From Candidatus Omnitrophota bacterium (lineage in GTDB: Bacteria; Omnitrophota; Gorgyraeia; Gygaellales; Profunditerraquicolaceae): DNA of 54,272 bases. Below the pieces are notes generated by a model. That model did not search any database. It had not been told where the DNA came from and saw only the letters and a program-made list of their open reading frames with translations. Below, in pieces: positions 885-30,531 of the stretch (position 1 is its first letter; every line of letters begins with the position of its first letter). Location of the stretch: assembly GCA_028712175.1 (NCBI GenBank), contig JAQTQQ010000007.1, positions 1 through 54,272 of the forward strand, read 5' to 3'. Position numbers and translations under genes: made by a program.

Positions 885-971
885 CAGCTTTTGAAAAAGG
901 CTAACTAGCAGTAATGCTGGGGCGCAAAATGACAGCTCCGAGATTTCGGAGGGCTGCGTTGCCAAAAGGAT
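885..971 (+). promoter_or_regulatory. Probable cyclic-di-GMP-I (GEMM) riboswitch
   Basis: The closing helix CUUUUG (888-893) pairs with CAAAAG (963-968). Next inside, GGCUAAC can pair with GUUGCC, as in the family's conserved first helix. A helix AGCA/UGCU capped by the GNRA-type loop GUAA follows, then the strand GGGGCGCAAAAUGACAG, which resembles the family core GGGACGCAAAGCCACGG. A second long helix (CAGCUCCGA with UCGGAGGGCUG) follows, and then GCUGCGUUGCC, which resembles the consensus GCCGGGUUGCC. Element order, spacing, GNRA cap and flanks all agree with the c-di-GMP-I class. A promoter lies upstream, and an intrinsic terminator and a secreted-protein gene lie downstream. The family commonly controls pili and surface proteins. 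The match was made by eye, with several core positions differing from consensus. Confidence 0.72.
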
Positions 972-1058: not shown

Positions 1059-1355
1059 ATGGGGAAAAAGGGGATTTTAACGGGTTTTCTCGTTCTTTTG
1101 ATAGTTTCAACTGTTTGGGCCGGAGATAGCGTAACTATCGCTATGTCCTGCACCATTCCCTCTATTCCGGGAGTCAATGCACCGCCTAATATTTCGGAAA
1201 CTTTAGTCAGGAATCAATTAAGGGATGATGTTGCGAAGATTAACTCCACTGCCACGGTAGGAGAAGAATTTATAGAAAAGGAGGAGAGTAAAGTTACCCT
1301 TCTTGCCCAAGGAGAAAAAGTTACCAGAGAAGTAAAAACAATTTACACACGGTAA
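1059..1355 (+). CDS. Small secreted protein under riboswitch control
   Basis: 98 residues. The start is fixed by a strong Shine-Dalgarno site (AAGGAGGTG, six bases before the ATG). Residues 1-21 form a classic signal peptide (basic MGKKG, a hydrophobic run, then VWAG with cleavage likely after WAG). The mature part of about 76 residues starts DSVTIAMSCTIPSIPGV and is charged toward the C-terminus. One Cys is left after cleavage. No family is recognised. It is the only plus-strand gene in the window and faces the fibre operon tail to tail, ending 13 bases from that operon's last stop. Because the c-di-GMP-type riboswitch and terminator precede it, its expression probably follows the sessile/motile second messenger. 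A role with the neighbouring fibre proteins is plausible but unproven. Confidence 0.8.
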   Translation: MGKKGILTGFLVLLIVSTVWAGDSVTIAMSCTIPSIPGVNAPPNISETLVRNQLRDDVAKINSTATVGEEFIEKEESKVTLLAQGEKVTREVKTIYTR

Positions 1356-1368
1356 CAACCCCCTCCTC

Positions 1369-4245
1369 CTATTTCTCTATTCTGCGTAGAGGAATGTTCC
1401 AAACTGAAGATTCCCCCTCTTGAAGGGGGAATTTCTTTTTAAGGGAAACTAGAGGTAAATAATAAACAGGTATTGAGTTTAAGTCGGCAACCAGCTCGTG
1501 CTCTCCGGCTTGCGCCTGGGGATATGTATACCTGCCATCAATTCCGGAAATAACCGTTTTAGTTCCATCCATGGTTATAGCTACCCCGGCGACACCTTTT
1601 TCTCCGACTGAATACACACCATCCCCATTTGTATCTTCAAAGACAACACCGCGAATCTCCGAACGCGAAGTTATTCCAAAATAAACCTTGTTTGATGATG
1701 CGTTGGCAATAGGCACGCCTTGCGTTACGGGAACAGTAAGGACATATCCGGCAGGCAAACTTCCGGTGTCAAGAGTCACATAAGCAACCTTCCCCCGGAC
1801 ATTAACAAATTTAAAATACCCAAGTTCGTCGGTAATCTGGTACTTATTTTTCCCTAACCAGACTTTAATGCCAAAAACTGGAGGCTCATCACGGTCAAGC
1901 AGGCCGTTGGAGTTGTAATCTTTAAAAACATACCCTGATACGGAAGAAACCGCATCCCAGCGTATCCCAGTATCCCAAAGCAGCTTCATCCCTACATTAA
2001 AACTTGCCTCAACCCGGCTAATCGCCGTAGCTGAATTCTCCTTCCATATATTTCTAACCCGGGCAGAAGCATAAATTTCCTGTCCGCTGGAAGGCCGGTA
2101 TGAAAGCTCGCTGTAGCCTTCAATATAATCTTCACCTGCAAGAAAAGATAATGGAGAATTTGCGCGCTCTTCATCGCGGTAAGTAAAACGCAATGAACCC
2201 CAAAATGGCGTTTTACCGATACGATCATACCAATCAAGCCCGGTTTCAGTAACATTGGGCCTGACGTGGTTACTTGTAGATTTTTCGGTAAGCCAGTTCA
2301 ATTCGCGGTTATAATAATAATACAAGGCGCCAATAACGCTAAAACGCAGCCCTGCGAAGATTTTTTCATTTTCATAGTCTAATGTTGGAGAGGTATAGCT
2401 CTTGTTGTCTTGGTGAGAATATTTTAAATAAGTAGAGACCTCCTTGCCAAATACAGAAAACAGCCTTGACGCCCCCAAACCTCCGGATTGATATCTTGTC
2501 TGCGATATTTTACCAAGGTCATTCTGAAGGGTATAGGTTGCCTCTACATTTGTAAGCGGATCTACCTTATAATTAATCGTAGTATCGAGATCTTCATTAA
2601 AACGATTTTGATTATCCTCCGCCGGATATAACCGGTCACGGTAAATATCAACGCGCTGGGTCAAAGTCAGTTTATCTGTCGGAAGATAACTTAAGTTTAG
2701 AAGTGCGCCGAATTCCCCCTGCCTCCAACCGGGTCCGGTAATACTGACAAATTCTTTGTCTATATCCCTAAACTGCAACCTAGCATCAAGCTCTTTGCCT
2801 TTATAACTGGTAGTAAATAATTGAGCCAGGTTTTTAGTGTCACTGGCAATCTCATAATTATAACCATAATTTCCAAAATTCCAGCTCCCCATAAGGTCAT
2901 AAGCATAATCTTTAAGATTTTCTTGCCGATTGCGCCCCCACCCATGGGCTACGCTAAATTTATAATTCTGCCATGAAGAAGGAGAATAATTTAAATTAAA
3001 ACCGCTCATAAATGAATGCAGCGCCTTATAATCGGTTAAAGCTAACGTACCGTAACGCCCTCCGTTCTCCCTGCCCCAGAATACAGAATAATCGAGCTTA
3101 TTATCAAAAGCAGGCGAATAAAAATATACGCCTCTTAAATCCGGAGCGGGTATTGCTAAATTATTAAAATATGGGTTGTAATCTCCTGCTCGAATATTAA
3201 ATCCCTTAAAATCACCTATATTCCCGTTAGTCAGGCCTGCAGATACATAAGTCATATCTGTGGTACCGGGTAAAACGCGCATGGTTACCGATGAATCCAA
3301 TAACCCATAAGGAGTAGCGCCGTTCATACGTAAATTATGGATCCAAGAGTAATTTCCGCTGCGATGAATCGTTTGAATCCGGTTACCGGTATAATAAGAA
3401 TACCAGTCTAAATTATAGCGTAATTTAAAATTCCCCATACTCTCTTCTTCTTTGCGAGCTACTTCTTCCAAGGTCGGAGTCTCAGGAATAGGCAAGATCC
3501 CTGTGCACTCTATACTGGTACGGCCGGAATCATCCCAAACAACGATAGAAGCAAATCCCCTGCCCTTAGCCATAACTGAAATTTCATTATTATTCACTCT
3601 TTCCACATAAAGCAGTTCCGGCTGAACCACCAAAAAACGCTGGATATTATTACCGCTAATAACAACATATTTTCCTTCCTCGATTTCTATGGGCTGCTGA
3701 AGGGTAAAGTTAGGGTCTGCGATAAAATATTTACTCGGCAGCCTTCTTTTTACGCTCTCACCCGTCGGTATTCCGCGCTCCAATTCGGGGATAAAAATCT
3801 GCGACTCACTTAAACCTTCAGTTTTACCAAGTGTTTCCTTAATATTAACCCGGTTGAGGGTATTCTCCATAACTGCCTGCCGGCCAAGGCTAGCAGCGGG
3901 AGGATAATCTGTAGCAATAAATTCATCATCAGGCGCAGGCCGTCCGGACATTTCTCTAATAAGCTGTAGATAATAAATTGCGGCAGGATATCCCGGTTCA
4001 GCAATAAGGGCCTTCTTGAATTCATGCTCTGCCTGCTCAAGATCGCCATTCTTGAAATAGCTTATACCATATTCACAGAGGTACTCGGCGATCTGGCTGC
4101 GGGCAAAAACTGAATTTGGGGTCAGAGTAAGAGAAAGGAATAAAATACAAAAAAGCAATAAGATACGCGGGAAAAAAGCCGGTTTCCCGGTAACCCATAA
4201 AATATGGCGGGATTTTTTAGCTGATCTCCCAGCAAAAAGAGACAT
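1369..4245 (-). CDS. Large outer-membrane fibre-assembly (usher-like) protein
   Basis: 958 residues from the ATG at 4245, which directly follows the chaperone stop (TAA-T-ATG). A longer frame exists from a TTG at 4272. Order of parts: basic N-terminus and hydrophobic signal or anchor (about 25-50); a TPR-like helical pair (SYFKNGDLEQAEHEFKKAL); a domain near 175-250 like the pilus-formation N-terminal domain found before secretins (IEEGKYVVI to GFASIVVWDDSG); roughly 500 residues of alternating aromatic beta strands resembling an outer-membrane barrel; and two C-terminal SdrD-B/CarboxypepD-reg-like Ig domains with calcium-type motifs (DYNSNGLLDRDE and DTNGDGVYSVGE). Position after a PapD-like chaperone and pilin-like genes suggests it secretes or anchors the fibre, as an usher does. 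It is not recognisably a FimD usher by sequence. Function is inferred from architecture and context. Confidence 0.75.
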   Translation of the reverse strand: MSLFAGRSAKKSRHILWVTGKPAFFPRILLLFCILFLSLTLTPNSVFARSQIAEYLCEYGISYFKNGDLEQAEHEFKKALIAEPGYPAAIYYLQLIREMSGRPAPDDEFIATDYPPAASLGRQAVMENTLNRVNIKETLGKTEGLSESQIFIPELERGIPTGESVKRRLPSKYFIADPNFTLQQPIEIEEGKYVVISGNNIQRFLVVQPELLYVERVNNNEISVMAKGRGFASIVVWDDSGRTSIECTGILPIPETPTLEEVARKEEESMGNFKLRYNLDWYSYYTGNRIQTIHRSGNYSWIHNLRMNGATPYGLLDSSVTMRVLPGTTDMTYVSAGLTNGNIGDFKGFNIRAGDYNPYFNNLAIPAPDLRGVYFYSPAFDNKLDYSVFWGRENGGRYGTLALTDYKALHSFMSGFNLNYSPSSWQNYKFSVAHGWGRNRQENLKDYAYDLMGSWNFGNYGYNYEIASDTKNLAQLFTTSYKGKELDARLQFRDIDKEFVSITGPGWRQGEFGALLNLSYLPTDKLTLTQRVDIYRDRLYPAEDNQNRFNEDLDTTINYKVDPLTNVEATYTLQNDLGKISQTRYQSGGLGASRLFSVFGKEVSTYLKYSHQDNKSYTSPTLDYENEKIFAGLRFSVIGALYYYYNRELNWLTEKSTSNHVRPNVTETGLDWYDRIGKTPFWGSLRFTYRDEERANSPLSFLAGEDYIEGYSELSYRPSSGQEIYASARVRNIWKENSATAISRVEASFNVGMKLLWDTGIRWDAVSSVSGYVFKDYNSNGLLDRDEPPVFGIKVWLGKNKYQITDELGYFKFVNVRGKVAYVTLDTGSLPAGYVLTVPVTQGVPIANASSNKVYFGITSRSEIRGVVFEDTNGDGVYSVGEKGVAGVAITMDGTKTVISGIDGRYTYPQAQAGEHELVADLNSIPVYYLPLVSLKKKFPLQEGESSVWNIPLRRIEK

Positions 4246-4246
4246 A

Positions 4247-5137
4247 TTACTGAAGCTGGCCGATCTGAACAATTTGATTGTTCTCTCCTACTGTAACAGA
4301 GGCCTCTTTGGTAATTACCGGACCTCTTCCTATACCTGCATCTGTGAGCGCTTTCCCAAGATCAACAGTTATGACCAGGTCATAGACACCGGCTGGAATC
4401 TTATCTTTCCATACCCCTAAGAGAGTACCTGTGCCGCCCGGAAAAGTATATACGCTATTAAATGCTCCACGGGCCTTTACTATCCCCTTATCATTCATTA
4501 AGCTAAAACTTCCGGAGGTAGTAATATCGGTATTGCCGGTATTTTCAAAGTCCAAACCAATATCCAAAGTTCCTTTGTTTTCCTTAGAAGATTCTATTTT
4601 TAAATTACTAATTTTTGCACTTCTTTTTATTGTTCCCTTTACTTCTACGTAGAAAAGAGTAGCGACCCTGACATTAACATTGAGGGCTGCAGAACGGCCT
4701 GAATCCTCCACTGCCCCTCTACCAATTAATGTCTCAAAAAAGAGTGTTGCAAAGCGGGAACCAGTTGCATCCTTGGGAGCGGTAATTGAATAGCTTATCT
4801 TTTGCTTCCCAAATGGAGGAATAGTTACCTCTGCCGGGGAAAAAGTTATCCATGGACAGGCAGAGGCAGGAGTGGTATTTGCCGGCAGGAATTCTTTAGC
4901 GCCGGAACCTCCGGGGATATAATACCAATCCTCAAGATAAAGGCGCATATCCTTGCTCTCTTCAGTCGGATTATCAAGTGTAATCTCTCCAAAGACACGT
5001 TCTCCCGGAGAAACAACAACTCGGATTTTTGACTGATTCATAAAAGGTAGCTTATTTGACTCTGCTTGCGCACTAGAAACAAAAATACTGCTTAGAAGAC
5101 AGAGTGAAATACCTATTAAACGTATTCGAGCAGACAA
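4247..5137 (-). CDS. PapD-like periplasmic chaperone
   Basis: 296 residues with a clean signal peptide (ISLCLLSSIFVSSAQAES, cleavage after AQA). The N-terminal domain has the layout of pilus chaperones: an edge strand (KIRVVVSPGERVFGEITLDN), a WITFSPAEVTIPPFGKQKI segment like the second chaperone strand, and a later domain (about 150-290) of Ig-like strands. It is longer than FimC/PapD (about 230 residues). It lies between the pilin-like subunit and the large outer-membrane protein, where chaperones of chaperone-usher loci usually sit. It probably caps pilin-like subunits in the periplasm. The upstream region carries a Shine-Dalgarno-like GGAGGG. Family-level assignment is reasonable; the exact clade is unknown. 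Confidence 0.7.
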   Translation of the reverse strand: MSARIRLIGISLCLLSSIFVSSAQAESNKLPFMNQSKIRVVVSPGERVFGEITLDNPTEESKDMRLYLEDWYYIPGGSGAKEFLPANTTPASACPWITFSPAEVTIPPFGKQKISYSITAPKDATGSRFATLFFETLIGRGAVEDSGRSAALNVNVRVATLFYVEVKGTIKRSAKISNLKIESSKENKGTLDIGLDFENTGNTDITTSGSFSLMNDKGIVKARGAFNSVYTFPGGTGTLLGVWKDKIPAGVYDLVITVDLGKALTDAGIGRGPVITKEASVTVGENNQIVQIGQLQ

Positions 5138-5184
5138 AATACCCTCCTCCGTTATATTACTGCAATAAACTTTTCCTTAATTGA

Positions 5185-5769
5185 TTACGGTGTAAGCGTA
5201 ATTGTTACTGTACCGTTATATGTACCTGCCGCTGTATCTAAACCAATCGGTGTTACGCCAGGAGCATCAGGCTTTGTTGGATCACCGGTTCCGATACCAT
5301 AGTAGATACGTAACCAACCGCCGGCTAACTGCGCCTTAGTATAACCAATACTCTGGCTGTTGCCGAAGCTAACCTTCTGTAAATCCGTACTTGCGGTAGA
5401 GCTGGTCTGTTTAACAAAAGAAACATTGACCTTGTTATCCAGATTTCCTCCTGCGCTGCGCGCAAGCGATGTGCGTGTGTGTGTCACGGTCCATGCGGTT
5501 CCAGAGTTATCAGTCACACCGATATCAACGGCAAAATAGCTGGAAGGCAGAAAAATCTTGTTTACTGTATCCCAGACCAATGTACCGAAACTAATCGCTG
5601 TTGCTGATGTCCAAACATCGCCCGTAACCCTGCTTACAGTAACGGATAAACCTCCAGTCATTGTCGGGACAGTAGCATTGACATTGACAGTCTGGCTTGT
5701 AGCCGCTGAAGCATTTGTTGCGCAAAGCGCAACCACAACGAAAATCATACAAATAAGTATGTTTTTCAT
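5185..5769 (-). CDS. Pilin-like structural subunit
   Basis: 194 residues from the ATG at 5769, preferred over an earlier in-frame start at 5907 because AGGAGGAGGT stands just before 5769, a signal peptide begins exactly there (MKNILICMIFVVVALC to NASA), and the longer frame would overlap the preceding gene. The mature protein begins TSQTVNVNATVPTMTGG and is Thr/Ser/Val rich with beta strands throughout. It ends in GTYNGTVTITLTP, the closing strand typical of coat-protein-U/WxL/pilin-like sandwiches. It is probably the major subunit of the fibre handled by the chaperone at 4247-5137. It has no type IV prepilin site. Confidence 0.7.
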   Translation of the reverse strand: MKNILICMIFVVVALCATNASAATSQTVNVNATVPTMTGGLSVTVSRVTGDVWTSATAISFGTLVWDTVNKIFLPSSYFAVDIGVTDNSGTAWTVTHTRTSLARSAGGNLDNKVNVSFVKQTSSTASTDLQKVSFGNSQSIGYTKAQLAGGWLRIYYGIGTGDPTKPDAPGVTPIGLDTAAGTYNGTVTITLTP

Positions 5770-5840
5770 TTTTACCTCCTCCTTTATTAACTGTTTCTGT
5801 TTAGAATTAATATTTTGGAACATTCTCCCTTTCCTCCTTG

Positions 5841-7268
5841 TTAAATTTCGGTTAATGTATATGTTATGCGCGATGAATAATTTCCTGCCCTTAAATCTGC
5901 GGGGCAAATTAATTCGTAAATAACTTTGAATCTATCGCTTGAGCCGCTGGCATCAGAAATAAAAAGCAACAGGTCGCCCTTTTCAACCGGAATTTTATTT
6001 GAAATTTTTAAACTCCCCTTAGTATCATTTACCGGCAGTGTCTGCATAGAGAAATATTTAGAGGGAATTTTATTTCCGTCACCTGAAACCAACTCAGAAA
6101 GGATGTTCTGAGTAATCTGATAAGCCCTGCCAATGTTAGTTTTTACCTCAATTAATACCTCATTGATACGCGGACCATCACTAGGCTTAAGGTCGGCAAA
6201 ATCGATATTATAACGCTGGTCCCCAGGAGAGATACTGATTTCAAATATACGATCCTGCCTTATCTCTAAATCCAATGCCCCTAAATTAATCTGCTTGCCC
6301 GATGAATCCAAAAGATATTGAATGCGTGAACGATAATTACCGGCTATAAGCTTCAAGGGGTCGGCTAAAGAATAGATGATTGTAAATGCCTTGTCTGAAC
6401 TGCCGTCAGGCCGAGAAGAATAGATTGTTTGAATATTATTAGACAAAGGCGTAGGTTGATTGACTGCCACACCTTTCTGCGCATCGGGAACAGTAAGGAG
6501 AATCTTACCGCTGTCAATAAGCCTGCCATCTTGAGATTGAATAGGTTGAGGAAGCATCTGCATTATACGAAACGGGCCGTTAAAAGAACCGTTAATCGTA
6601 ACTACGGCATTAGCCATAGAACGCAAGCCATTACTACCCAAAGGATTAATAATAAGCGAGTTTATTCCTTCTGCCGGAGCAACAGAAACTGACAATGACC
6701 CTCCATCATCGGGAATGCTGACATAGACTTCAATAACTTTGGTTATCGGAGACTGCGCCGAACCGATGGGATTTAAAACTAAACTGATACGCCCAGTATA
6801 ATAACCGGGGGTAATTTCTTGAGTATTAGCAACTGCATAAACAAGGGTAAATGAATCAGCGGTACCCGCCGGATTAGAAACATAGATCAGTTCATCATTC
6901 CTTACAACAATATCTCCGGTAGGAATTCGCAAATCTCCGTACTTATTCGAACCACGAAAACCCCTGACCACAAAATTGTTTCCGATAGTAAGCGAAGGAT
7001 TATCCCTGTTCCTTAAGGGGCTTTCGATGCGCTGTCGGATTTCATAACGATTATTCGCTATATCATTAAATGTTGTAAAAGTTATGGCGCGGGAAAAATT
7101 CGAACGGTCAAATTCAAGCCGGCTTCCTCCCTGTTCAAAGGTATAACTTAGATCAAAGGCAGAATATGCGGGAGACAAAAAAACCCAACCAGCAATAAGG
7201 AAAAAACCCAAGAATATTACTTTAACTACCCTTTGCATTTTCATAATTTTACCATTATTTAACTTCAT
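5841..7268 (-). CDS. Three-domain pilin-like surface protein (tip or adhesin candidate)
   Basis: 475 residues from the ATG at 7268; a TTG at 7274 and ATGs at 7244 and 7238 are alternatives and none has a good ribosome site. A signal peptide ends near SPAYSA. The rest is three similar segments, each finishing with the same signature: FTLVYAVANTQEITPGYYTGRI, FTIIYSLADPLKLIAGNYRSRI and FKVIYELICPADLRAGNYSSRI share F-x-x-x-Y with a later G-x-Y-x-x-R-I. The small subunit downstream ends with a related strand (AGTYNGTVTITL). I infer a tandem array of pilin-like sandwiches forming a tip or baseplate of the fibre. It is the first gene of the operon, 21 bases past the leader's terminator stem. No exact family is recognised. 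Confidence 0.65.
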   Translation of the reverse strand: MKLNNGKIMKMQRVVKVIFLGFFLIAGWVFLSPAYSAFDLSYTFEQGGSRLEFDRSNFSRAITFTTFNDIANNRYEIRQRIESPLRNRDNPSLTIGNNFVVRGFRGSNKYGDLRIPTGDIVVRNDELIYVSNPAGTADSFTLVYAVANTQEITPGYYTGRISLVLNPIGSAQSPITKVIEVYVSIPDDGGSLSVSVAPAEGINSLIINPLGSNGLRSMANAVVTINGSFNGPFRIMQMLPQPIQSQDGRLIDSGKILLTVPDAQKGVAVNQPTPLSNNIQTIYSSRPDGSSDKAFTIIYSLADPLKLIAGNYRSRIQYLLDSSGKQINLGALDLEIRQDRIFEISISPGDQRYNIDFADLKPSDGPRINEVLIEVKTNIGRAYQITQNILSELVSGDGNKIPSKYFSMQTLPVNDTKGSLKISNKIPVEKGDLLLFISDASGSSDRFKVIYELICPADLRAGNYSSRITYTLTEI

Positions 7269-7275
7269 AAACAAT

Positions 7276-7380
7276 AAAAAAATAAAAAACCGGACAGATC
7301 AAATCTTCGTCTATCCGGTTAAATCACGTGGCTCCTCCGCCCTCCAGCAGAGGATCCCGAATATATTACCTTAGGTTTGT
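7276..7380 (-). promoter_or_regulatory. Structured leader with intrinsic terminator (attenuator candidate)
   Basis: The transcript from the promoter at 7387-7415 runs about 110 bases before the first codon. It contains an 8-base-pair hairpin (TCCTCTGC at 7354-7347 with GCGGAGGA at 7340-7333, one G-U pair, 6-base loop), the stretch GCCACGTGATTT, then a terminator stem (AACCGGA at 7320-7314 with TCCGGTT at 7294-7288, extended by three pairs) followed by a U-rich tail. A complete terminator between promoter and start codon means the fibre operon is probably controlled by premature termination. The 5' part does not match a riboswitch class I can name. Confidence 0.65.
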
Positions 7381-7386
7381 GTAATA

Positions 7387-7415
7387 AGGATAGCACTGCT
7401 TAGCCCGCTTGTCAA
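7387..7415 (-). promoter_or_regulatory. Sigma70 promoter of the fibre operon
   Basis: Perfect TTGACA (7415-7410), 17-base spacer, TATCCT (7392-7387; 4 of 6). The predicted start is near 7380. Confidence 0.7.
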
Positions 7416-22950: not shown

Positions 22951-24651
22951 TTATCTCTTTTTCTTGCGGGCGGCGGGTACTTTATTTGGCTCCGCGGAAG
23001 GTCTTTGATTCAACCTTTCTTCAAGCTTAGTCAACTCCTCAGGAGAATAATCGTTAGGCTTAACAATCCGGGCGGTAATAAATATGAGCAGGTCTATTTT
23101 TTCAACACTATCTTCATCGCGGCCAAAAAACTTTCCTACCCATGGCAAATCAACCAGAAAAGGAATTCCCACCCTTGTTTTGGTTTTAACATCTTTAAGC
23201 AGTCCGCCTATAACAATAGTTTCTCCGTCGTTAAGCAATACCTGGGTCTGGGCCTCCCGCACATCGATAATAGGATATTCTGTTGTCGTCTGTTCCTCTC
23301 CGGCAGTAGAAGTAGCCGTAACAGTAGCATCTGAAGAAGTAATACTCGGGTGGACAATCATATTGATATACCCTTCTTCACTGATTTGCGGGACAACATT
23401 CAGGCGTATACCAATCTCCTGATAATAATCCAGCGTCTGGGTAACAGTCGGGCCGCTGGTATCATTACCCGCCGTAACCGTAGATTGTAATATAGGCGTA
23501 TGGTATCCGACCAACATCGATGCTTCCTGATTATCAAGAGTAAGAATGCTGGGAGCGGACAAGGTATTAGTGCTCGAATCGCTTTCCAAAGCGTGCACAA
23601 TTGCTTCAAACTGCGTCCCGGTTAATTTCCTAAAAACAAACTCGCCTCCTGCGGTATATGGATTTGCAGCAGTAAGCAGGGCACCGGAAGCCGTGCCTAA
23701 AGCATGGCCGCCGATAGCCTGCTTACCCTGCCTTATTGTTTGCGTAGTAATCGCTGCAGATTCGGCATTAGTAGAAGAACCTAACCCCCAGTCAACACCC
23801 AAATCTTTTAGTTTAGTTTTGTTGACCTCCATAAACTTGGTCTCAACCAACACCTGCCTAGGCTTAATATCGATCTTTGGCAAAATAACATTCCGGATCT
23901 TATCAAGGGTACTTGCGGTATCGGTAACAACCAGCATCTTTGATTTTACGGAAGGGTCAAATTCCGCTTTCTTCATTACCGTCTCGCCTGCGGCGTTCTT
24001 CTCATAAGAAACAGTTTCAGCCTTGACAGCATCAGCTTGTTCCCTTATCAACGCAGAGCTTGAAGCCTTGGTATCTTTACCGATCTGAAATGTCCCGAAT
24101 TGCCAGCCCTTTTGCCCGCGCATATAAAGAACCGATATCCTGCCGCGGGGAGAAAGCAAAGGTATGATTATTTTCTGCGCGTCCTGCGCATCTAAAAACT
24201 TTAAGGTAATAATATCTGTCTGCAGCGGCTCTTCAGCGGCAATTTTCGCCACATTTTCCATCTTAGTCACTAAAATCACATTGCCTTGCTTCTGATAACC
24301 AAAACCATAAGTCTTTAAAATTACATCCAGCGCTATCTCCCAAGGAACATCTGAAAGGCGCACAGATATATTCCCTATTACATCAGGGGTAGTTACGATA
24401 TTTACTCCGGACTTATAAGATATAATTTTAAGCACATTATTAATATCCGCCTCTTTAAAATCAAAGGTTACATTTTCCTGGCTGGAAACTACCCCCATAG
24501 AAGAAAGTTCCTGGGGTTTAGAATTAATACCTGCCGGATCCACTGCAAGCTGGCCGGATGCGGCAATCTGGCCAGGGGAACTCAATACTTCCTGGCCTGC
24601 AAAAGCCAAAGCATAAAAAGTAAAAACAAATATAAAGAATATTTTTTTCAT
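22951..24651 (-). CDS. pilQ: Type IV pilus secretin
   Basis: 566 residues. Signal peptide (FIFVFTFYALAFAGQ), an STN-like short domain (VTFDFKEADINNVLKIISYK), a second N-domain, then the secretin core: ALESDSSTNTLSAPSILTLDNQEAS and VGIPFLVDLPWVGKFFG (family VPxLGxIPxLGxLF). A tail rich in Pro, Arg and Lys ends the protein. There is no peptidoglycan-binding AMIN domain, so it is shorter than proteobacterial PilQ. It forms the outer-membrane pore through which pili pass. It overlaps pilP by four bases. Confidence 0.93.
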   Translation of the reverse strand: MKKIFFIFVFTFYALAFAGQEVLSSPGQIAASGQLAVDPAGINSKPQELSSMGVVSSQENVTFDFKEADINNVLKIISYKSGVNIVTTPDVIGNISVRLSDVPWEIALDVILKTYGFGYQKQGNVILVTKMENVAKIAAEEPLQTDIITLKFLDAQDAQKIIIPLLSPRGRISVLYMRGQKGWQFGTFQIGKDTKASSSALIREQADAVKAETVSYEKNAAGETVMKKAEFDPSVKSKMLVVTDTASTLDKIRNVILPKIDIKPRQVLVETKFMEVNKTKLKDLGVDWGLGSSTNAESAAITTQTIRQGKQAIGGHALGTASGALLTAANPYTAGGEFVFRKLTGTQFEAIVHALESDSSTNTLSAPSILTLDNQEASMLVGYHTPILQSTVTAGNDTSGPTVTQTLDYYQEIGIRLNVVPQISEEGYINMIVHPSITSSDATVTATSTAGEEQTTTEYPIIDVREAQTQVLLNDGETIVIGGLLKDVKTKTRVGIPFLVDLPWVGKFFGRDEDSVEKIDLLIFITARIVKPNDYSPEELTKLEERLNQRPSAEPNKVPAARKKKR

Positions 24652-25016
24652 TCTGCTCCCTTCTTAGTTAACTCTACCTCCGAAAGCTCTCCATTTTTGA
24701 TGAAAATTACTTTATTCTCAAGGATCTTTAAAACACGGTAATCTCCAACGGGGTCTCCGATTCCAACTACCATGGAGTTGACAATGGCAAAACAGCGCCC
24801 GTATTTATCATAAATAATTCCTTCTATCGATAGCCCTGCTCCGGATGCGGCTTCCTCTTGTTTGTCAAGTTTAAGCAGCCTGCCTTCAGGAGTAACCAGC
24901 GGGATAAACGGATTACGCCTGCCCCTTGGGTTATAGGCAAAATCATTCTGACAAAATGCCGGAGACAAGGTTAATACTAAAAACAAAATAATTAAAATTT
25001 TCCTATTTAGTAACAT
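24648..25016 (-). CDS. pilP: Type IV pilus assembly protein PilP
   Basis: 122 residues. N-terminal signal (ILIILFLVLTLSPAFCQND; the Cys near the end of the hydrophobic run could be a lipobox), then RRNPFIPL and LSIEGIIYDKYGRCFAIVN, like the PilP beta domain that links PilMNO to PilQ. Overlaps pilO by 14 bases and pilQ by 4 bases. Confidence 0.85.
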   Translation of the reverse strand: MLLNRKILIILFLVLTLSPAFCQNDFAYNPRGRRNPFIPLVTPEGRLLKLDKQEEAASGAGLSIEGIIYDKYGRCFAIVNSMVVGIGDPVGDYRVLKILENKVIFIKNGELSEVELTKKGAE

Positions 25017-25569
25017 AAGTTTTTATTACCAGGCTAACCTTTTGCTTCATATAATCCGACAGCTGCGTCGAAATCTTTAATTCGCTGACCCCCATAAAGA
25101 CCTGAGAATGCTCAAGGGCATTAATAAACTTGCCCAGGTTATGGTAATCACATACAAGATCCAAATTAATCAGATACGGAATAAATTTATCCGACACCCC
25201 GGATGTTTTTGCAGTCTTTACCTCATAGCTGGGGCGTATTTGAGAAATCATGATATCAAATTTATTTGCCTGCCTTGAAATATCCTTGAGAAGCCCCGAA
25301 ATCTGGTTTTCTGAAAGAATCTTGGAAGACTTTGCCGGAGCCTTCTCCAGGCGTACACTCTGCTTATCCTTGGAAACACGCATACTCTCCAAATCACGGT
25401 TTAAATTTGCGATATCTTTTTCTATGCGTGCGATCTTTGGGTCTAAGCTTTTTAACCCGGATACTTGGGCCTTTAAAATAAAACTTAAATCAACATAAAC
25501 AATCAAGACGCAAAAAATCACAATTAATATTTTCTTTTGATTATCTAATTGTATATTTGCTAGGCTCAT
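25003..25569 (-). CDS. pilO: Type IV pilus inner-membrane protein PilO
   Basis: 188 residues: short cytoplasmic start, one membrane span (ILIVIFCVLIVYVDLSFIL), coiled coil (IEKDIANLNRDLESMRVSK), then a ferredoxin-like periplasmic domain (YLINLDLVCDYHNLGKFINAL). It pairs with PilN in the alignment complex. Overlaps pilN by four bases. Confidence 0.88.
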   Translation of the reverse strand: MSLANIQLDNQKKILIVIFCVLIVYVDLSFILKAQVSGLKSLDPKIARIEKDIANLNRDLESMRVSKDKQSVRLEKAPAKSSKILSENQISGLLKDISRQANKFDIMISQIRPSYEVKTAKTSGVSDKFIPYLINLDLVCDYHNLGKFINALEHSQVFMGVSELKISTQLSDYMKQKVSLVIKTYVTK

Positions 25570-26171
25570 TTATTTTTTAAAACCCCGGTAAAAACAAAAT
25601 CTGCGACATCATACCCCTCAATATTTCTTTTTTGCACGTTACTTAGTTCAAACCCGGAAAAGTCTTTTGAGAATGCGGTATCCGCTTTCAGATTATCCAA
25701 CAGCTTATGGATCAAGCCAACCTCTTCCCTTTCCAAGGAAACAACTGAACCCTGTATGGTTATGTTCTTGCTATTAACCGTTATATCATTAAACCAAACA
25801 CCGGCAGGCAGGTTAAGGCTTAATTTGTTTAATTTCTGCGCCCAAAGGACTCTCTGATTATTTAAAACCTGTGTAATACCGGCCTCCTGATAAACGGCAG
25901 AAAATTCTTTATTAAACTCATCAAATGCTTTTTTCTGCGGCTCCATCGCTAGCCACTTCCTGTTCAACGAAACAAGTTTACCGTTTTTAAAAATGACCGC
26001 GGCGGCAAAATAAAGATGCGCCAGAACGAATATCCCTAATAATACCGGAATAGCATAAATAAACAACTGATCCTGATTAAACCCCAGACTGCTTTTAACA
26101 GATACCTGTTCCGGGTTTTTAGCCCTGACCTTAACCCTTAATTCTTCCGGTAATAAATTTATTTCGATCAT
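25566..26171 (-). CDS. pilN: Type IV pilus inner-membrane protein PilN
   Basis: 201 residues starting MIEINLLPEELR, the conserved cytoplasmic N-terminus of PilN that binds PilM. One membrane span (YAIPVLLGIFVLAHLYF), a coiled-coil stretch, and a small periplasmic domain (VWFNDITVNSKNITIQGSV). Starts two bases after pilM ends. Confidence 0.9.
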   Translation of the reverse strand: MIEINLLPEELRVKVRAKNPEQVSVKSSLGFNQDQLFIYAIPVLLGIFVLAHLYFAAAVIFKNGKLVSLNRKWLAMEPQKKAFDEFNKEFSAVYQEAGITQVLNNQRVLWAQKLNKLSLNLPAGVWFNDITVNSKNITIQGSVVSLEREEVGLIHKLLDNLKADTAFSKDFSGFELSNVQKRNIEGYDVADFVFTGVLKNK

Positions 26172-26173
26172 AT

Positions 26174-27199
26174 TCAGCGTAAAGCTAAGCCCATGGCAAC
26201 ATTAAATTGCGCAGCGCATTGCTTTAATTTTTCCGCATCTAATTTATCGGAAATTTTTATCTTCCTAAAAGGATCCCAAAATTCCACCTCTATCCCCAGG
26301 CAGGCGGATAGCATTTCGCCTAAACCAGGGATCTTTCCCGCCCCCCCGCTTAAAAATATCTTGACCACATTGGAAGTATTCTGGCTTTCATAATAATCAA
26401 AAGAAGTGCGGATCTCGGCGGCTAAATTTGTAAGCACGCTCTCGACCGATGCTTTAACCTTATTGGCGTTCTCCGCATCGGGGGTAATCTTTAATTTTTC
26501 GGCCTCTTTAAAATCAATGTTAAAAATATCCATTAGCTTCTTGGTGAAATTTGCCCCGCCTGAATGGATGTCACGGCTTAAAGCCGGAATTCCGTTATTA
26601 ATAATATTGACATTGCTTATGGTAGAACCGATATTTAAAAGGCAAATTGACTTATCTTCAAGGACTTCCGCCTTAGGATAATTGAAATTAAAAGCATTGA
26701 TTAAGGCCAAGGAATCAATATCGATAACATTCGCCCTTAAAGAAGAATTTTCCAGAATTTTTAGCCTCTGTTGAATCAGCTCTTTTTTAACTGCAGCAAT
26801 TAATACAAACATCTTATTCTCGGGCAAATCGTCTCTTAGTATCTCGGCATCCAGGCTGACCTCGCTTAAGGCAAAAGGGATATGCTTTTGGGCTTCGAAC
26901 TTAAGCGCCTGCTTAAGTTCATTTTTATTCATTTTCATGAAATTTACATAGCGGATAACCGTAGATGAACCGCAAAAAGAAATATTAACCAGATCGGCAT
27001 CTTCGGTATGCTTAATCTTCTTGAGTATTTCCGTAGGGTCAAGCTGGCTCTCCTCCAAATCAAAACCGACTAATTCTGTATCGCTGCCGCTTACTTTCAA
27101 CTTTACGCACTTAATCGACTGAGTGCCGATATCTAAACCGATATTGAACTTGTCCTTAACTCCGGGTAATTTTATTTTTGAGAAAATCTTCATATTCAT
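26174..27199 (-). CDS. pilM: Type IV pilus actin-like ATPase PilM
   Basis: 341 residues, actin/FtsA-like: NIGLDIGTQSIKCVKL (phosphate 1), LLNIGSTISNVNIINNG (phosphate 2) and LSGGAGKIPGLGEML (adenosine). Cytoplasmic; binds the PilN tail INLLP to form the inner-membrane platform. First of the pilM-N-O-P-Q set, 4 bases after the upstream pseudopilin-like gene. Confidence 0.92.
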   Translation of the reverse strand: MNMKIFSKIKLPGVKDKFNIGLDIGTQSIKCVKLKVSGSDTELVGFDLEESQLDPTEILKKIKHTEDADLVNISFCGSSTVIRYVNFMKMNKNELKQALKFEAQKHIPFALSEVSLDAEILRDDLPENKMFVLIAAVKKELIQQRLKILENSSLRANVIDIDSLALINAFNFNYPKAEVLEDKSICLLNIGSTISNVNIINNGIPALSRDIHSGGANFTKKLMDIFNIDFKEAEKLKITPDAENANKVKASVESVLTNLAAEIRTSFDYYESQNTSNVVKIFLSGGAGKIPGLGEMLSACLGIEVEFWDPFRKIKISDKLDAEKLKQCAAQFNVAMGLALR

Positions 27200-27203
27200 A
27201 AGC

Positions 27204-27617
27204 TTATTTTTTATCGCATGCCTCTGTGATAATCATGCCTCCGGTAGACACCGCATAAACCATCTTGCCGGTAAGCTTGCAATTTAACGGTGACGCCAGA
27301 CAATTATACCCCAGTGAATCAAGCCGCTGACAATCATATTCATAGCCGCGCACGCTGGATTCTGACAGATAGTTCTTTTGTAAATACGGCGGGTTATTCT
27401 TGGTAAGTACGTCTATATTTGTTGGATATACGCCCTTATTATCTTTAGCATAATTTTCCAAAGCGGTAGAAAGAAGCTTCAGGTTAACCTGGGCCAAAAG
27501 CTGATTCTGCTCAATATTATATATAATTATCTTATGCACCGCCAGGCGCAGCAATAAAGCAGACAAAGCAACGATAATCATAATAGTAACGAAACTGCGG
27601 GCTTTTCTGTCAAACAT
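27204..27617 (-). CDS. Pseudopilin-like protein without a prepilin cleavage site
   Basis: 137 residues from the ATG at 27617, which follows the preceding stop as TAA-T-ATG; a GTG at 27644 would give nine more residues. One hydrophobic helix (FVTIMIIVALSALLLRLAV), then LLSTALENYAKDNKGVYPTNIDVL, like the alpha-helix/loop segment of GspG/PilE-type pilins. There is no Gly-Phe-Thr-Leu-type prepilin peptidase site, so it may stay as an inner-membrane protein. Two to three Cys pairs in the C-terminal part could form disulfides. It probably belongs to the pilus machine but its role is unknown. Confidence 0.65.
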   Translation of the reverse strand: MFDRKARSFVTIMIIVALSALLLRLAVHKIIIYNIEQNQLLAQVNLKLLSTALENYAKDNKGVYPTNIDVLTKNNPPYLQKNYLSESSVRGYEYDCQRLDSLGYNCLASPLNCKLTGKMVYAVSTGGMIITEACDKK

Positions 27618-27618
27618 A

Positions 27619-28062
27619 TTAATAATTTTTAAAATCCAAATCACTAGATACTGAAGTGTCGCTGCGTTTTAATATCCCTCCGGTCACAATCTGATAGTTA
27701 TGATCAGCTAATGCCGGGTTAATCGCCAGCGCCCTTATATCATAACCGGCTTCATTTGCTGAAACAATGATATAACGGAAATTCCCGATATTATTCATAC
27801 TAATTAAATCCTGAAAAAGACAGCCATCGTCAATAAGAAACTGCAAATTTGTTTCATTGCCCGGGGCATAAAGCCCGGTATGGCGTGCCGAGTAAACCTC
27901 AAAACCTGAAGCAATGGCTTTAAGGTTCGCCACGCAATTAGATTCATTAGCCTGCTTCCTGAATTGCACCCCTTCAACAATAGCTACTGTAACAAGCAAG
28001 GAAACAATGGCCATAACCACCATTATCTCTACAAGCGTAAAGCCATGTTTGAATTTAAACAT
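27619..28062 (-). CDS. Minor type IV prepilin
   Basis: 147 residues. The N-terminus HGFTLVEIMVVMAIVSLLVTV has a prepilin peptidase site after Gly-7 and the conserved Glu at +5. NCVANLKAIASGFEVYSARHTGLYAP matches the globular pilin start. It is likely a minor pilin placed before pilM. Stop and next start form TAA-T-ATG, suggesting reinitiation. Confidence 0.88.
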   Translation of the reverse strand: MFKFKHGFTLVEIMVVMAIVSLLVTVAIVEGVQFRKQANESNCVANLKAIASGFEVYSARHTGLYAPGNETNLQFLIDDGCLFQDLISMNNIGNFRYIIVSANEAGYDIRALAINPALADHNYQIVTGGILKRSDTSVSSDLDFKNY

Positions 28063-28097
28063 TATATTAATAATAACATAATGGCGCTATTTGGCAA

Positions 28098-30071
28098 TTA
28101 GTTTTTAATATTAATTTTAGCCATTAAGCTCTTGGCCCTGATATGATTAGGATTAATCCTTAAGGCCTGTTTTAAAGCACCTTTAGACTTTGCCCTTTCC
28201 TGTACATTTAAATAGGCAAGCGCTAAATTATAATGATAATCAGCAGAATCCGCAGAGAGCTCCGAGGCACAATGAAATGAATTAATCGCTGACTGCCAGT
28301 AATTACTTTTTGCCAAATTAATCCCCAGATTATTATAAAACTCTGCGGCATTATCAACAAAACTTGTATTTTTAATAAAATCAGCCACAAGCTTGCGCTT
28401 AAGCGGATCCGCTTCATCGCCGGACTCGCCCAAAGATCTCAATAGATGAAAAACAACCAGCTCCATATCGCCTTTGGGAAAATAAATGCGCGCTAGATTA
28501 AAATGCGTGAATTTAAGGTTAGGATCCAGCCTCAATGCCTGAGTGTACTTTGCAACTGCCGCCTGCATGTCCCCCATAGCCTCATAGATATTACCAAGGT
28601 TATTCTCAACCTCCCCTGCTTTTACCCCAAGCGGAGTATTTTCTAAAAGTTCATACTCAAGTTTTGCACGGGCGTAAAGTTTTTGTTTAAAATAAAGATT
28701 GGCCAAACTTAAACGCGCCTCCATTAAATCCGGTTTAATTTTAAGCGCCCGCCTATATTCGGCTTCAGCTTCGCTGAACCGGCCGAGATATTCGTACTGA
28801 ACGCCCAAATTACTATGGGCCTGAAAACTATTAGGAGAATATTTCATGATACTTTTGTAAAAAACAACCGGGTTTCTCCATTCGAAATTGCGTCCGGCTG
28901 TTAGCAGAATGTAAAACACACAGAATAACCCGATCGTAAAAATAAATAATTTCTTTCTTAAAAAACTATATAAAACATAAGCGATAAGCAAATAAAAACT
29001 AACTGACGGTAGATAAATAAAATGTTCGGCAATAAATGCATTGATGGGAAAAATTCCCGATTGCGGAATAAAAAAAACGACCGACCAAAATAACATAAAG
29101 GAAAAAACCTTATTATTAGAAGAATACTTTAAATAGCGCAAACAAATAAAAATAACGAAACCTAAAGTTAATGTTGCTGAAAAAATAGTTAAAATGCTTT
29201 CCGGGCGAATCAATTGGCGGGACATATGCAGGCCAACTGGTAAAATTAGCAATTTTAAATAAGTGAAAAGTATCTCCGGCAGAGCGATTAGCCTCTTAAA
29301 CCATACGACGCTAGTTAAGGAAGGGGGCCTTAGGGTAACAAAATTAAATAAATATACCCTTAAAAAAAGATAAATAACGGCTATAGCGGCAAAAGGGGCA
29401 ATGTTTCTTAGAAAATAATATTTTTCTTTTAACCGATCATGTAAAAAATAAAAAATGTACCCGCAGATAATAAACGGATAAACTACTGCTGCCTCTTTAG
29501 ATAACAACGCCAATATAAAACTGAATAACGAAAAAACATAAAACAAAATCGGGCGCCTCGCCCCTTCCTTCTGGCTACTTATAAAGCATAGAAGCGAAGC
29601 AATCACAAAAATCCCCATAAGCATCTCTGCCCTTCCGGAGATATAAGTTACGCTTTCGGTATGAATAGGGCTTGCAGCAAACAGAAGCGCACAAGCAAAA
29701 GAAATGGAAAAATTGATTGAGAGGCTGATTAACAGCAAAAAAACCAAAAAAGATACCCCGACCTGTAAAAGGATGTTGGTTAAATGGTAGCCAAAAGGAT
29801 TAAGCTGCCAAAGATGATAATCAAATATGTAAGATATCGTCTGCAGTGGGCGCCAAAAATTAGACCCGATGGCTACTCCAAAATACAGGTCATTGGTAAA
29901 ACTTAAAGGTATGTTTTGTACGCTTCGGATCAGGGTGTTCTTAACAACCAAAGCATCGTCATCCCAGATAAAAGGATTGCCCAGGCTGTTAAAATACGCC
30001 AGGAAACAAACTGCGGTAATTAGAAATAGGACTAGAAAATTAGTCTTTATTTTTTGTATAGATAAGATCAT
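28098..30071 (-). CDS. TMTC-like membrane glycosyltransferase with TPR domain
   Basis: 657 residues. N-terminal half has about ten membrane spans with the GT-C pattern: a first periplasmic loop NPFIWDDDALVVKN with the acidic pair expected at the active site, then GSNFWRPLQTISY and ASPIHTESVTYISGRAEML, as in the TMTC/PMT-like O-mannosyltransferases. The C-terminal half (about 410-655) has at least five TPR units (SNLGVQYEYLGRFSEAEAEY, ENNLGNIYEAMGDMQAAVAKY). It follows pilA and precedes a minor pilin, so an attractive role is O-glycosylation of pilin from a lipid-linked sugar. This is context inference. Substrate and sugar are unknown. Confidence 0.78.
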   Translation of the reverse strand: MILSIQKIKTNFLVLFLITAVCFLAYFNSLGNPFIWDDDALVVKNTLIRSVQNIPLSFTNDLYFGVAIGSNFWRPLQTISYIFDYHLWQLNPFGYHLTNILLQVGVSFLVFLLLISLSINFSISFACALLFAASPIHTESVTYISGRAEMLMGIFVIASLLCFISSQKEGARRPILFYVFSLFSFILALLSKEAAVVYPFIICGYIFYFLHDRLKEKYYFLRNIAPFAAIAVIYLFLRVYLFNFVTLRPPSLTSVVWFKRLIALPEILFTYLKLLILPVGLHMSRQLIRPESILTIFSATLTLGFVIFICLRYLKYSSNNKVFSFMLFWSVVFFIPQSGIFPINAFIAEHFIYLPSVSFYLLIAYVLYSFLRKKLFIFTIGLFCVFYILLTAGRNFEWRNPVVFYKSIMKYSPNSFQAHSNLGVQYEYLGRFSEAEAEYRRALKIKPDLMEARLSLANLYFKQKLYARAKLEYELLENTPLGVKAGEVENNLGNIYEAMGDMQAAVAKYTQALRLDPNLKFTHFNLARIYFPKGDMELVVFHLLRSLGESGDEADPLKRKLVADFIKNTSFVDNAAEFYNNLGINLAKSNYWQSAINSFHCASELSADSADYHYNLALAYLNVQERAKSKGALKQALRINPNHIRAKSLMAKINIKN

Positions 30072-30079
30072 AAGTTTAT

Positions 30080-30118
30080 AAAAAAAAGGGAGAGCATTGT
30101 TTCTCTCCCTTTTTTTTA
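30080..30118 (-). terminator. Intrinsic terminator after pilA
   Basis: GGGAGAG (30088-30094) and CTCTCCC (30103-30109) flanked by A and T runs on both sides, giving a strong terminator on the minus strand right after pilA. It should make pilA mRNA much more abundant than the downstream glycosyltransferase and pil genes. Confidence 0.85.
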
Positions 30119-30132
30119 TAATACTAAGCTTT

Positions 30133-30531
30133 TTATAATGGTGTAAGCACTCCGCCTGTTGTAGCTGTGTAGGTAATCGTTCCGGTTGTCCCAGGAGTAA
30201 CAGGGGCGGCTACAAAGGTATAACCACCTGCAGCTAATGTGCAGGAATAGTTATAACCCTGAACAGCGGTGTTGGCGCCTCCAGCAGCACAATAGCTCGG
30301 AGCTGAAGTAATAAATTCAGTTAAAGCAGCTACATCAGCAGGATATGCACCGCTGTGGCTGGTTGAATAAGTTTCAGCTGCGGTAGATAAACTGCGCACA
30401 GTTGCTTTAGCTGCTGCTTCATTAGCTGTTCTTCTTGCAGTAAGCAAGTTAGGTACGGCAATAGCGGCTAATAAAGCAATAATTGCAACTACGATCATGA
30501 TTTCGACTAATGTAAAGCCTTTTCTATTCAT
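30133..30531 (-). CDS. pilA: Major type IV pilin
   Basis: 132 residues. RKGFTLVEIMIVVAIIALLA has the prepilin peptidase site (after Gly-5) and Glu at +5, followed by an Ala-rich helix (NEAAAKATVRSLSTAAETY), then a short beta domain with one Cys pair (PSYCAA and YSCTLA). Small and soluble-domain-light, as in Geobacter- or GspG-like pilins. It has its own promoter and terminator and a long leader, plus a clear ribosome site (AAGGAGGTTA). Confidence 0.94.
   Translation of the reverse strand: MNRKGFTLVEIMIVVAIIALLAAIAVPNLLTARRTANEAAAKATVRSLSTAAETYSTSHSGAYPADVAALTEFITSAPSYCAAGGANTAVQGYNYSCTLAAGGYTFVAAPVTPGTTGTITYTATTGGVLTPL

Follow-up and report, generated by a model that had tools for sequence, protein, structure and literature searches.

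A probable chaperone-usher-type fibre locus with a plugless, usher-like outer-membrane barrel in the Omnitrophota

The stretch of DNA analysed here, which we call the window, comprises 54,272 nucleotides of contig JAQTQQ010000007.1 from a Candidatus Omnitrophota bacterium (GCA_028712175.1, a 1.26-Mb assembly that is 95% complete), and close to its start lies a locus that we regard, with a probability of about 80%, as a fibre system of the chaperone-usher type with a distinct design. Four consecutive genes with short gaps between them occupy the minus strand from 7268 to 1369 in the sequence and its open reading frame map. The first, TIP (7268-5841), encodes a 475-residue protein of three pilin-like domains, the last without a completing strand; PIL (5769-5185) encodes a 194-residue pilin with an N-terminal donor strand, counted from its ATG (the listed 240-residue reading frame begins further upstream); CHAP (5137-4247) encodes a predicted EcpB-related periplasmic chaperone of 296 residues; and OMP (4245-1369) encodes a 958-residue protein, the candidate fibre-export pore, in which TPR helices and a secretin-type N-domain precede a predicted barrel of about 26 beta-strands (residues 274-758) and a pair of beta-sandwich domains at the C-terminus. 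An earlier inspection of the letters alone (the sequence-only reading) had described this row of a three-domain pilin-like protein, a one-domain pilin-like protein, a chaperone and a 958-residue outer-membrane protein, and all four are present as described. It had missed a fifth gene, SMALL (1059-1355, plus strand), and the c-di-GMP-I riboswitch associated with it. SMALL is convergent with the operon, ends 13 bases from the OMP stop codon and encodes 98 residues made up of a signal peptide, a donor-strand signature, an acidic variable middle and a conserved C-terminal VxTxYxR.

The four-gene set is conserved far beyond chance, because the order TIP-PIL-CHAP-OMP on one strand, as first read from the window, is kept in 23 of the 24 related loci in which 3.6 kb or more of sequence precedes OMP. 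These loci come from a scan with an OMP profile of one genome per species across 84,980 species, which returned 45 loci; the scan relies on conserved peptide patterns and does not prove absence elsewhere. Where the sequence continues for more than 450 bases downstream of OMP, as it does in 40 loci, a convergent SMALL is found in 37. Nearly all related loci with record titles are from Omnitrophota, the exceptions being labelled Planctomycetales, plain bacterium and uncultured bacterium, one locus each. A genome-wide search of 384 Omnitrophota genomes found OMP in 106 and SMALL in 54, and 53 of those 54 also possess OMP (the lists were compared by eye). The distribution is patchy, even within the genus of the window's genome.

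What might hold the subunits of such a fibre together? The TIP model, built with 28 natural sequences (predicted local distance difference test score, pLDDT, 86.7; predicted template modelling score, pTM, 0.51), consists of three Ig-like domains, in accord with the three domains read by eye. In domains 1 and 2 of the model, strand F is followed by the domain's own completing strand (155-168/175-185 and 310-322/325-338), which comes after the strand that follows PGYYTGRI or AGNYRSRI. Domain 3 stops on strand 462-474, the equivalent of strand F, and the same end is found in 28 of 28 homologues. The top Foldseek match of TIP is 3f85 (E 7e-14), an engineered donor-strand-linked CfaB-CfaB-CfaB trimer in which each CfaB pilin is completed by its neighbour's strand. 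VIA-align gives Z scores of 11.0 with CfaE-CfaB (3f83), 9.3 with CooA and 8.8 with both EcpA and CsuE; since unrelated Ig-like domains score similar Z values, the fold class of the modelled TIP is clear and its exact nearest family less so. Neither the PIL nor the TIP sequence profile has a significant match in the PDB (CfaE-CfaB appears at E 0.53 for TIP), and hhalign of PIL against EcpA gave nothing useful. By hhalign, PIL and TIP domain 1 are related (93.6%), more weakly on signal-free alignments (E 0.005). At its N-terminus PIL has an alternating strand, [IV]-x-V-x-A-x-[VI]-P, the hydrophobic positions of which are 92-100% conserved. The lack of a completing strand in TIP domain 3 and this N-terminal strand of PIL fit donor-strand exchange, and with the 3f85 match they predict subunits with an incomplete Ig fold that a neighbour's strand completes.

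A separate observation on the pilins is that three loci (L096:392-1855, L116:224-1738 and L080:8924-10390) encode a GH26-like glycoside hydrolase domain fused with an entire pilin domain, and in seven genomes of the class sample, including that of L080, pilin matches lie inside reading frames of 495-525 residues (pilin part only). The fusions suggest enzyme-bearing fibres.

CHAP, which starts with a TTG codon behind GGAGGAGG, appears from profile comparison to be related to the PapD-like chaperone superfamily. The single significant fimbrial protein found when its profile was compared with the PDB is EcpB, the best solved match (E 2.4e-4), and hhalign aligned CHAP with EcpB (87%, E 4e-6) and gave no match to FimC. 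A single proline is the only residue invariant across the whole chaperone superfamily (PMC4654587), and CHAP P101, kept in 36 of 36 family members, is aligned with this residue, Pro60, in EcpB. The domain-2 anchor of EcpB is Tyr169 (PMC4654587); CHAP Tyr230, found in 33 of 36 members, lies in a YxxPG segment like that of EcpB Tyr169 and is aligned near it, in a domain where the hhalign alignment is weak. The candidate donor strand of CHAP, with alternating hydrophobic residues at 152, 154, 156 and 158, contains R157 (36/36) and is aligned with the EcpB G1 strand. Two features weigh against a straightforward assignment. The hallmark of non-classical (archaic/alternative) chaperones is an arginine in strand F1 that serves as carboxylate anchor, Arg89 of EcpB, and in an alignment-dependent comparison it falls on CHAP alanine 130, where all 36 members have Ala, Gly or Ser. 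In addition, the Gram-positive family WxLIP_PGBD weakly matches 12 of the 36 CHAP members (best E 2e-4); the window's CHAP itself has no such match.

The OMP reading frame starts with an ATG immediately 3' of the CHAP stop codon. Its Pfam matches comprise SdrD_B in two stretches (E 1.8e-13) and T2SS-T3SS_pil_N (PF13629; E 2.3e-7), both over the cut-off, and TPR_2 (E 5.7e-5), below it, much as the domains had been called by eye. In the structural model (pLDDT 81.6) the TPR helices are followed by a small beta domain (186-250), the barrel and two C-terminal beta-sandwich domains. DSSP assigns 26 strands to the barrel of the predicted model, with pLDDT mostly above 90. In Foldseek, FimD/PapC ushers fill the first 13 places for the OMP model (E 7e-19 to 1.3e-9), followed by TonB receptors and porins as the next class, from 7e-8. 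In VIA-align FimD scores Z 17.0 across 513 residues, both C-terminal domains among them, at a root-mean-square deviation of 15.8 A, and the FimD translocation domain alone gives Z 16.4 at 5.0 A; FimD aligns over model residues 272-953, i.e., the barrel and both C-terminal domains, up to FimD residue 832.

Against this resemblance stand several results. The pTM of the model is 0.57, so that domain placement is uncertain, and the top VIA-align match is MtrB (Z 18.2 over 424 residues, barrel only). The usher signal in the model thus rests partly on overall layout, the barrel alone being as close to MtrB as to FimD. No hhalign match was obtained between OMP and K-12 FimD or EcpC. No inserted plug is present in the barrel, because its strands lie at most 18 residues apart and all relatives lack inserts of 12 or more residues in this region. 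At the front, where ushers have an N-terminal chaperone-binding domain, OMP has by sequence TPR and PF13629. The Pfam Usher family (PF00577) matches neither OMP nor its 36 relatives, nor anything in the window's genome or in the 384 Omnitrophota genomes, with E. coli as a positive control. OMP, as modelled, has the layout and the position of an usher, and its barrel does not single out ushers. It would work like an usher, export of the fibre passing through it, and we do not assign it to the usher family, because it lacks a Pfam Usher match and an hhalign match to FimD or EcpC and its barrel is not usher-specific.

The sequence-only reading had seen the logic of a chaperone-usher locus without an evident FimD-type usher, and both observations agree with the results: the best structural matches of OMP are ushers, those of TIP are CFA/I pilins and that of CHAP, by sequence profile and therefore provisionally the PapD-like chaperone it had named, is EcpB, while neither a Pfam Usher protein nor an inserted plug was found. 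The barrel-like middle that it had noted is predicted to be a membrane-type beta-barrel and not a propeller, with a strand number well above that of polysaccharide porins. None of the results that would have spoken against the sequence-only reading was obtained.

How did OMP come to occupy the place of an usher? It may be a true but highly diverged usher that has lost the plug, gained two strands and had its N-terminal domain swapped, a history to which we give somewhat less than an even chance. In the Foldseek ranking ushers come first, ahead by about ten orders of magnitude, the FimD alignment extends through both C-terminal domains, and OMP has the same partners as ushers, just as OMP shares with FimD/PapC a large barrel followed by two C-terminal beta-sandwich domains. 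FimD has 24 strands, an inserted plug and its own N-terminal domain; the OMP model has about 26 strands and no insert, and OMP has a TPR and secretin-type front. Divergence from an usher is also not reflected in any sequence similarity to FimD or EcpC or in a Pfam Usher match, and the C-terminal domains match SdrD_B and CarboxypepD_reg, both of which are widespread. The other history, which likewise falls a little short of even odds, is independent recruitment: a large porin-like barrel joined to a secretin-type N-domain would have entered the pilin-chaperone set and acquired the function of an usher without common descent. The absence of a plug fits such an origin, as do the front domain PF13629, of a type found in Tad and type II secretion system-like secretins, and MtrB, the 26-strand porin of the Mtr complex, which is the best barrel-only match and has a similar barrel size. 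MtrB itself has different partners and no chaperone, pilins or C-terminal sandwich domains. What speaks against recruitment is that the overall layout of OMP (periplasmic front, barrel, two C-terminal sandwiches) and its Foldseek ranking are usher-like.

The fifth gene, SMALL, lies behind a c-di-GMP-I riboswitch aptamer (889-966, plus strand; Rfam RF01051, 59 bits against a gathering score of 35, E 4.7e-9). Between the aptamer and the SMALL start codon, sequence reading and a predicted fold give two hairpins, each followed by a T run (973-1038; hairpins at 973-1001 and 1009-1032), which are likely to be the expression platform. A c-di-GMP-I-clan riboswitch precedes SMALL in 33 of the 37 loci tested, and two of the four loci that lack it (L093 and L115) have little upstream DNA. 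Seven GGDEF proteins are encoded in the window's genome. After its signal peptide SMALL has I-x-V-x-C-x-I-P, whose register is that of the donor strand in PIL. All four hydrophobic positions are 100% hydrophobic and the proline is kept in 33 of 33 sequences, and no pilin domain follows the signature. The mature parts of SMALL and PIL match each other (28.7%, E 6e-4; TIP, CHAP and OMP give E 0.3-0.6), and the SMALL profile matches in one genome (G012, E 2.4e-5) at what is, by coordinates, a pilin's N-terminus. Of 36 SMALL proteins, 32 have the donor motif near the N-terminus, as do 18 of 41 PIL proteins and 4 of 474 unrelated reading frames, a contrast that is descriptive, the pattern having been written after inspection of the SMALL and PIL families. 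In two loci (L119:11205-11296 and L121:6556-6643) a c-di-GMP-I riboswitch is found at the usual convergent place with no SMALL recognised, possibly reflecting a very diverged or lost gene.

That SMALL ends or anchors the fibre is a tentative proposal, one we hold at slightly under evens. It has a parallel in FimI, which is reported to end the type 1 pilus rod and to anchor the rod at the usher (PMC12122975). FimI is a whole pilin, unlike SMALL, which presents a donor signature without a pilin domain and is placed behind a c-di-GMP riboswitch. SMALL might instead not be a part of the fibre at all, if the riboswitch drives a convergent transcript that silences the OMP 3' end by antisense pairing or collision, the peptide being secondary. 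Most SMALL genes do end less than 60 bases from the OMP stop, as that idea would have it; but the SMALL protein is conserved at the residue level and has its donor signature in common with PIL, and in L086 SMALL is 2.8 kb away, indicating that convergence is not required, all of which makes silencing improbable. Least probable of all is a reading in which OMP serves as a porin for polysaccharides or solutes while the Ig-like proteins form a WxL-type surface layer with no strand-exchange polymerisation: TPR-fronted barrels are typical of BcsC/PgaA, AlgE is among the Foldseek matches of OMP and CHAP relatives show the weak WxLIP_PGBD matches, but polysaccharide porins (BcsC/PgaA/AlgE) have 16-18 strands against about 26 predicted for OMP, TIP matches donor-strand-linked CFA/I pilins, the missing strand of TIP domain 3 and the signature common to PIL and SMALL would go unexplained, and in the gene maps made we noticed no polysaccharide synthase next to the operon. 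BcsC- or PgaA-type porins were not among the structural matches of OMP listed, which by itself excludes nothing.

For the fibre system that we favour, we infer the following course of assembly. CHAP would bind TIP and PIL in the periplasm and lend each a strand, and the usher's place would be taken by OMP with its wide barrel, which has no plug, and its two sandwich domains at the C-terminus. TIP would lead. Its domain 3, which ends after strand F, would be completed by the N-terminal strand from the first PIL, and every PIL in turn would take up the strand of the next by donor-strand exchange. SMALL, with only a donor strand and the conserved tail, could then fill the groove of the last PIL and so end or anchor the fibre. 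Because the SMALL gene sits behind a c-di-GMP riboswitch, c-di-GMP may set the length or retention of the fibre, in whichever direction the effect runs. Taken in its strongest form, in which an independently evolved plugless usher builds donor-strand fibres phylum-wide and their ending or anchoring by a free-standing donor strand is set by the riboswitch, the proposal is rather unlikely.

The closest known systems are instructive for what is retained and what is changed. The pilin fold of TIP is closest to CfaB, CfaE, CooA and EcpA, CHAP is closest to EcpB, and a single operon provides the chaperone, the pilin, the tip and the outer-membrane pore, as it does for CFA/I (CfaABCE) and the E. coli common pilus (EcpABCD). 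Unlike in those systems, the tip has three pilin domains, its gene comes first and the pore gene last, the pore has no sequence match to EcpC, no plug and other front domains, and there is a fifth gene with a riboswitch. The archaic Csu pili (CsuA/B, CsuC, CsuE) are similar in that CsuE matches TIP domains 2-3 (Z 8.8) and in having a chaperone, putatively of two domains, with the invariant proline, and dissimilar in that the conserved arginine of archaic/alternative chaperones is absent from the aligned CHAP position.

Upstream of the operon is a sigma-70-like promoter, TTGACA-17-TATCCT (7387-7415, minus strand), a consensus match only (10/12). Between it and TIP lies a leader RNA (7284-7353, minus strand) with a GGAGG-loop hairpin (7353-7334) and then a terminator-like hairpin with a T run (7318-7284). 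The same leader is found upstream of TIP in 14 other loci (L081, L082, L084, L085, L086, L090, L097, L098, L099, L100, L101, L104, L106 and L108), the stem sequences varying with pairing apparently kept, as judged by eye, and its exact core occurs a single time in the window's genome. It has no Rfam match. CsrA was considered as a reader of the GGAGG loop and set aside, no CsrA having been found in the window's genome. Because several distant loci have an apparent second promoter between leader and TIP, the leader may act as an attenuator or be a small RNA in its own right.

Some related operons contain further genes. An extra gene in L092 (355-2214) encodes a PQQ/BamB-like propeller with a TIG domain, and one in L103 (4692-7988) has glycosyl hydrolase and ILEI domain matches; either product is a possible cargo or accessory protein. 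The gene immediately before TIP in two loci (L086:1063-3843 and L100:1322-4015) encodes another TPR-fronted protein, about 900 residues long and in one case with a weak outer-membrane barrel match, and TPR-region matches in frames of about 900-1000 residues are common across the order. Elsewhere in the window, at 22951-30531, there is by eye a type IV pilus-like cluster with a secretin-like protein, pilus assembly proteins and prepilin-like proteins with GFTLVEIM starts.

The Omnitrophota are a little-known phylum of tiny uncultured bacteria, and knowledge of chaperone-usher systems comes from Proteobacteria and a few other groups. Ushers, fimbriae and chaperones go unmentioned in the phylum's main genome survey, and a literature search found no paper linking Omnitrophota or Omnitrophica to ushers and none joining DUF4402 with ushers. 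The locus is probably a previously unrecognised version of the machinery for adhesive hairs, in which the subunits and chaperone are of known design and the pore is of a different build. Its strongest new elements are the candidate pore, usher-like yet not assigned to the usher family, and the riboswitch-linked donor-strand protein. If a plugless-pore system does operate phylum-wide, it would show which parts of an usher are dispensable: the plug, the usher's own N-terminal domain and the number of 24 strands. A pilin-free donor strand behind a c-di-GMP riboswitch, if it acts as proposed, would be a new and simple control of fibre length or release.

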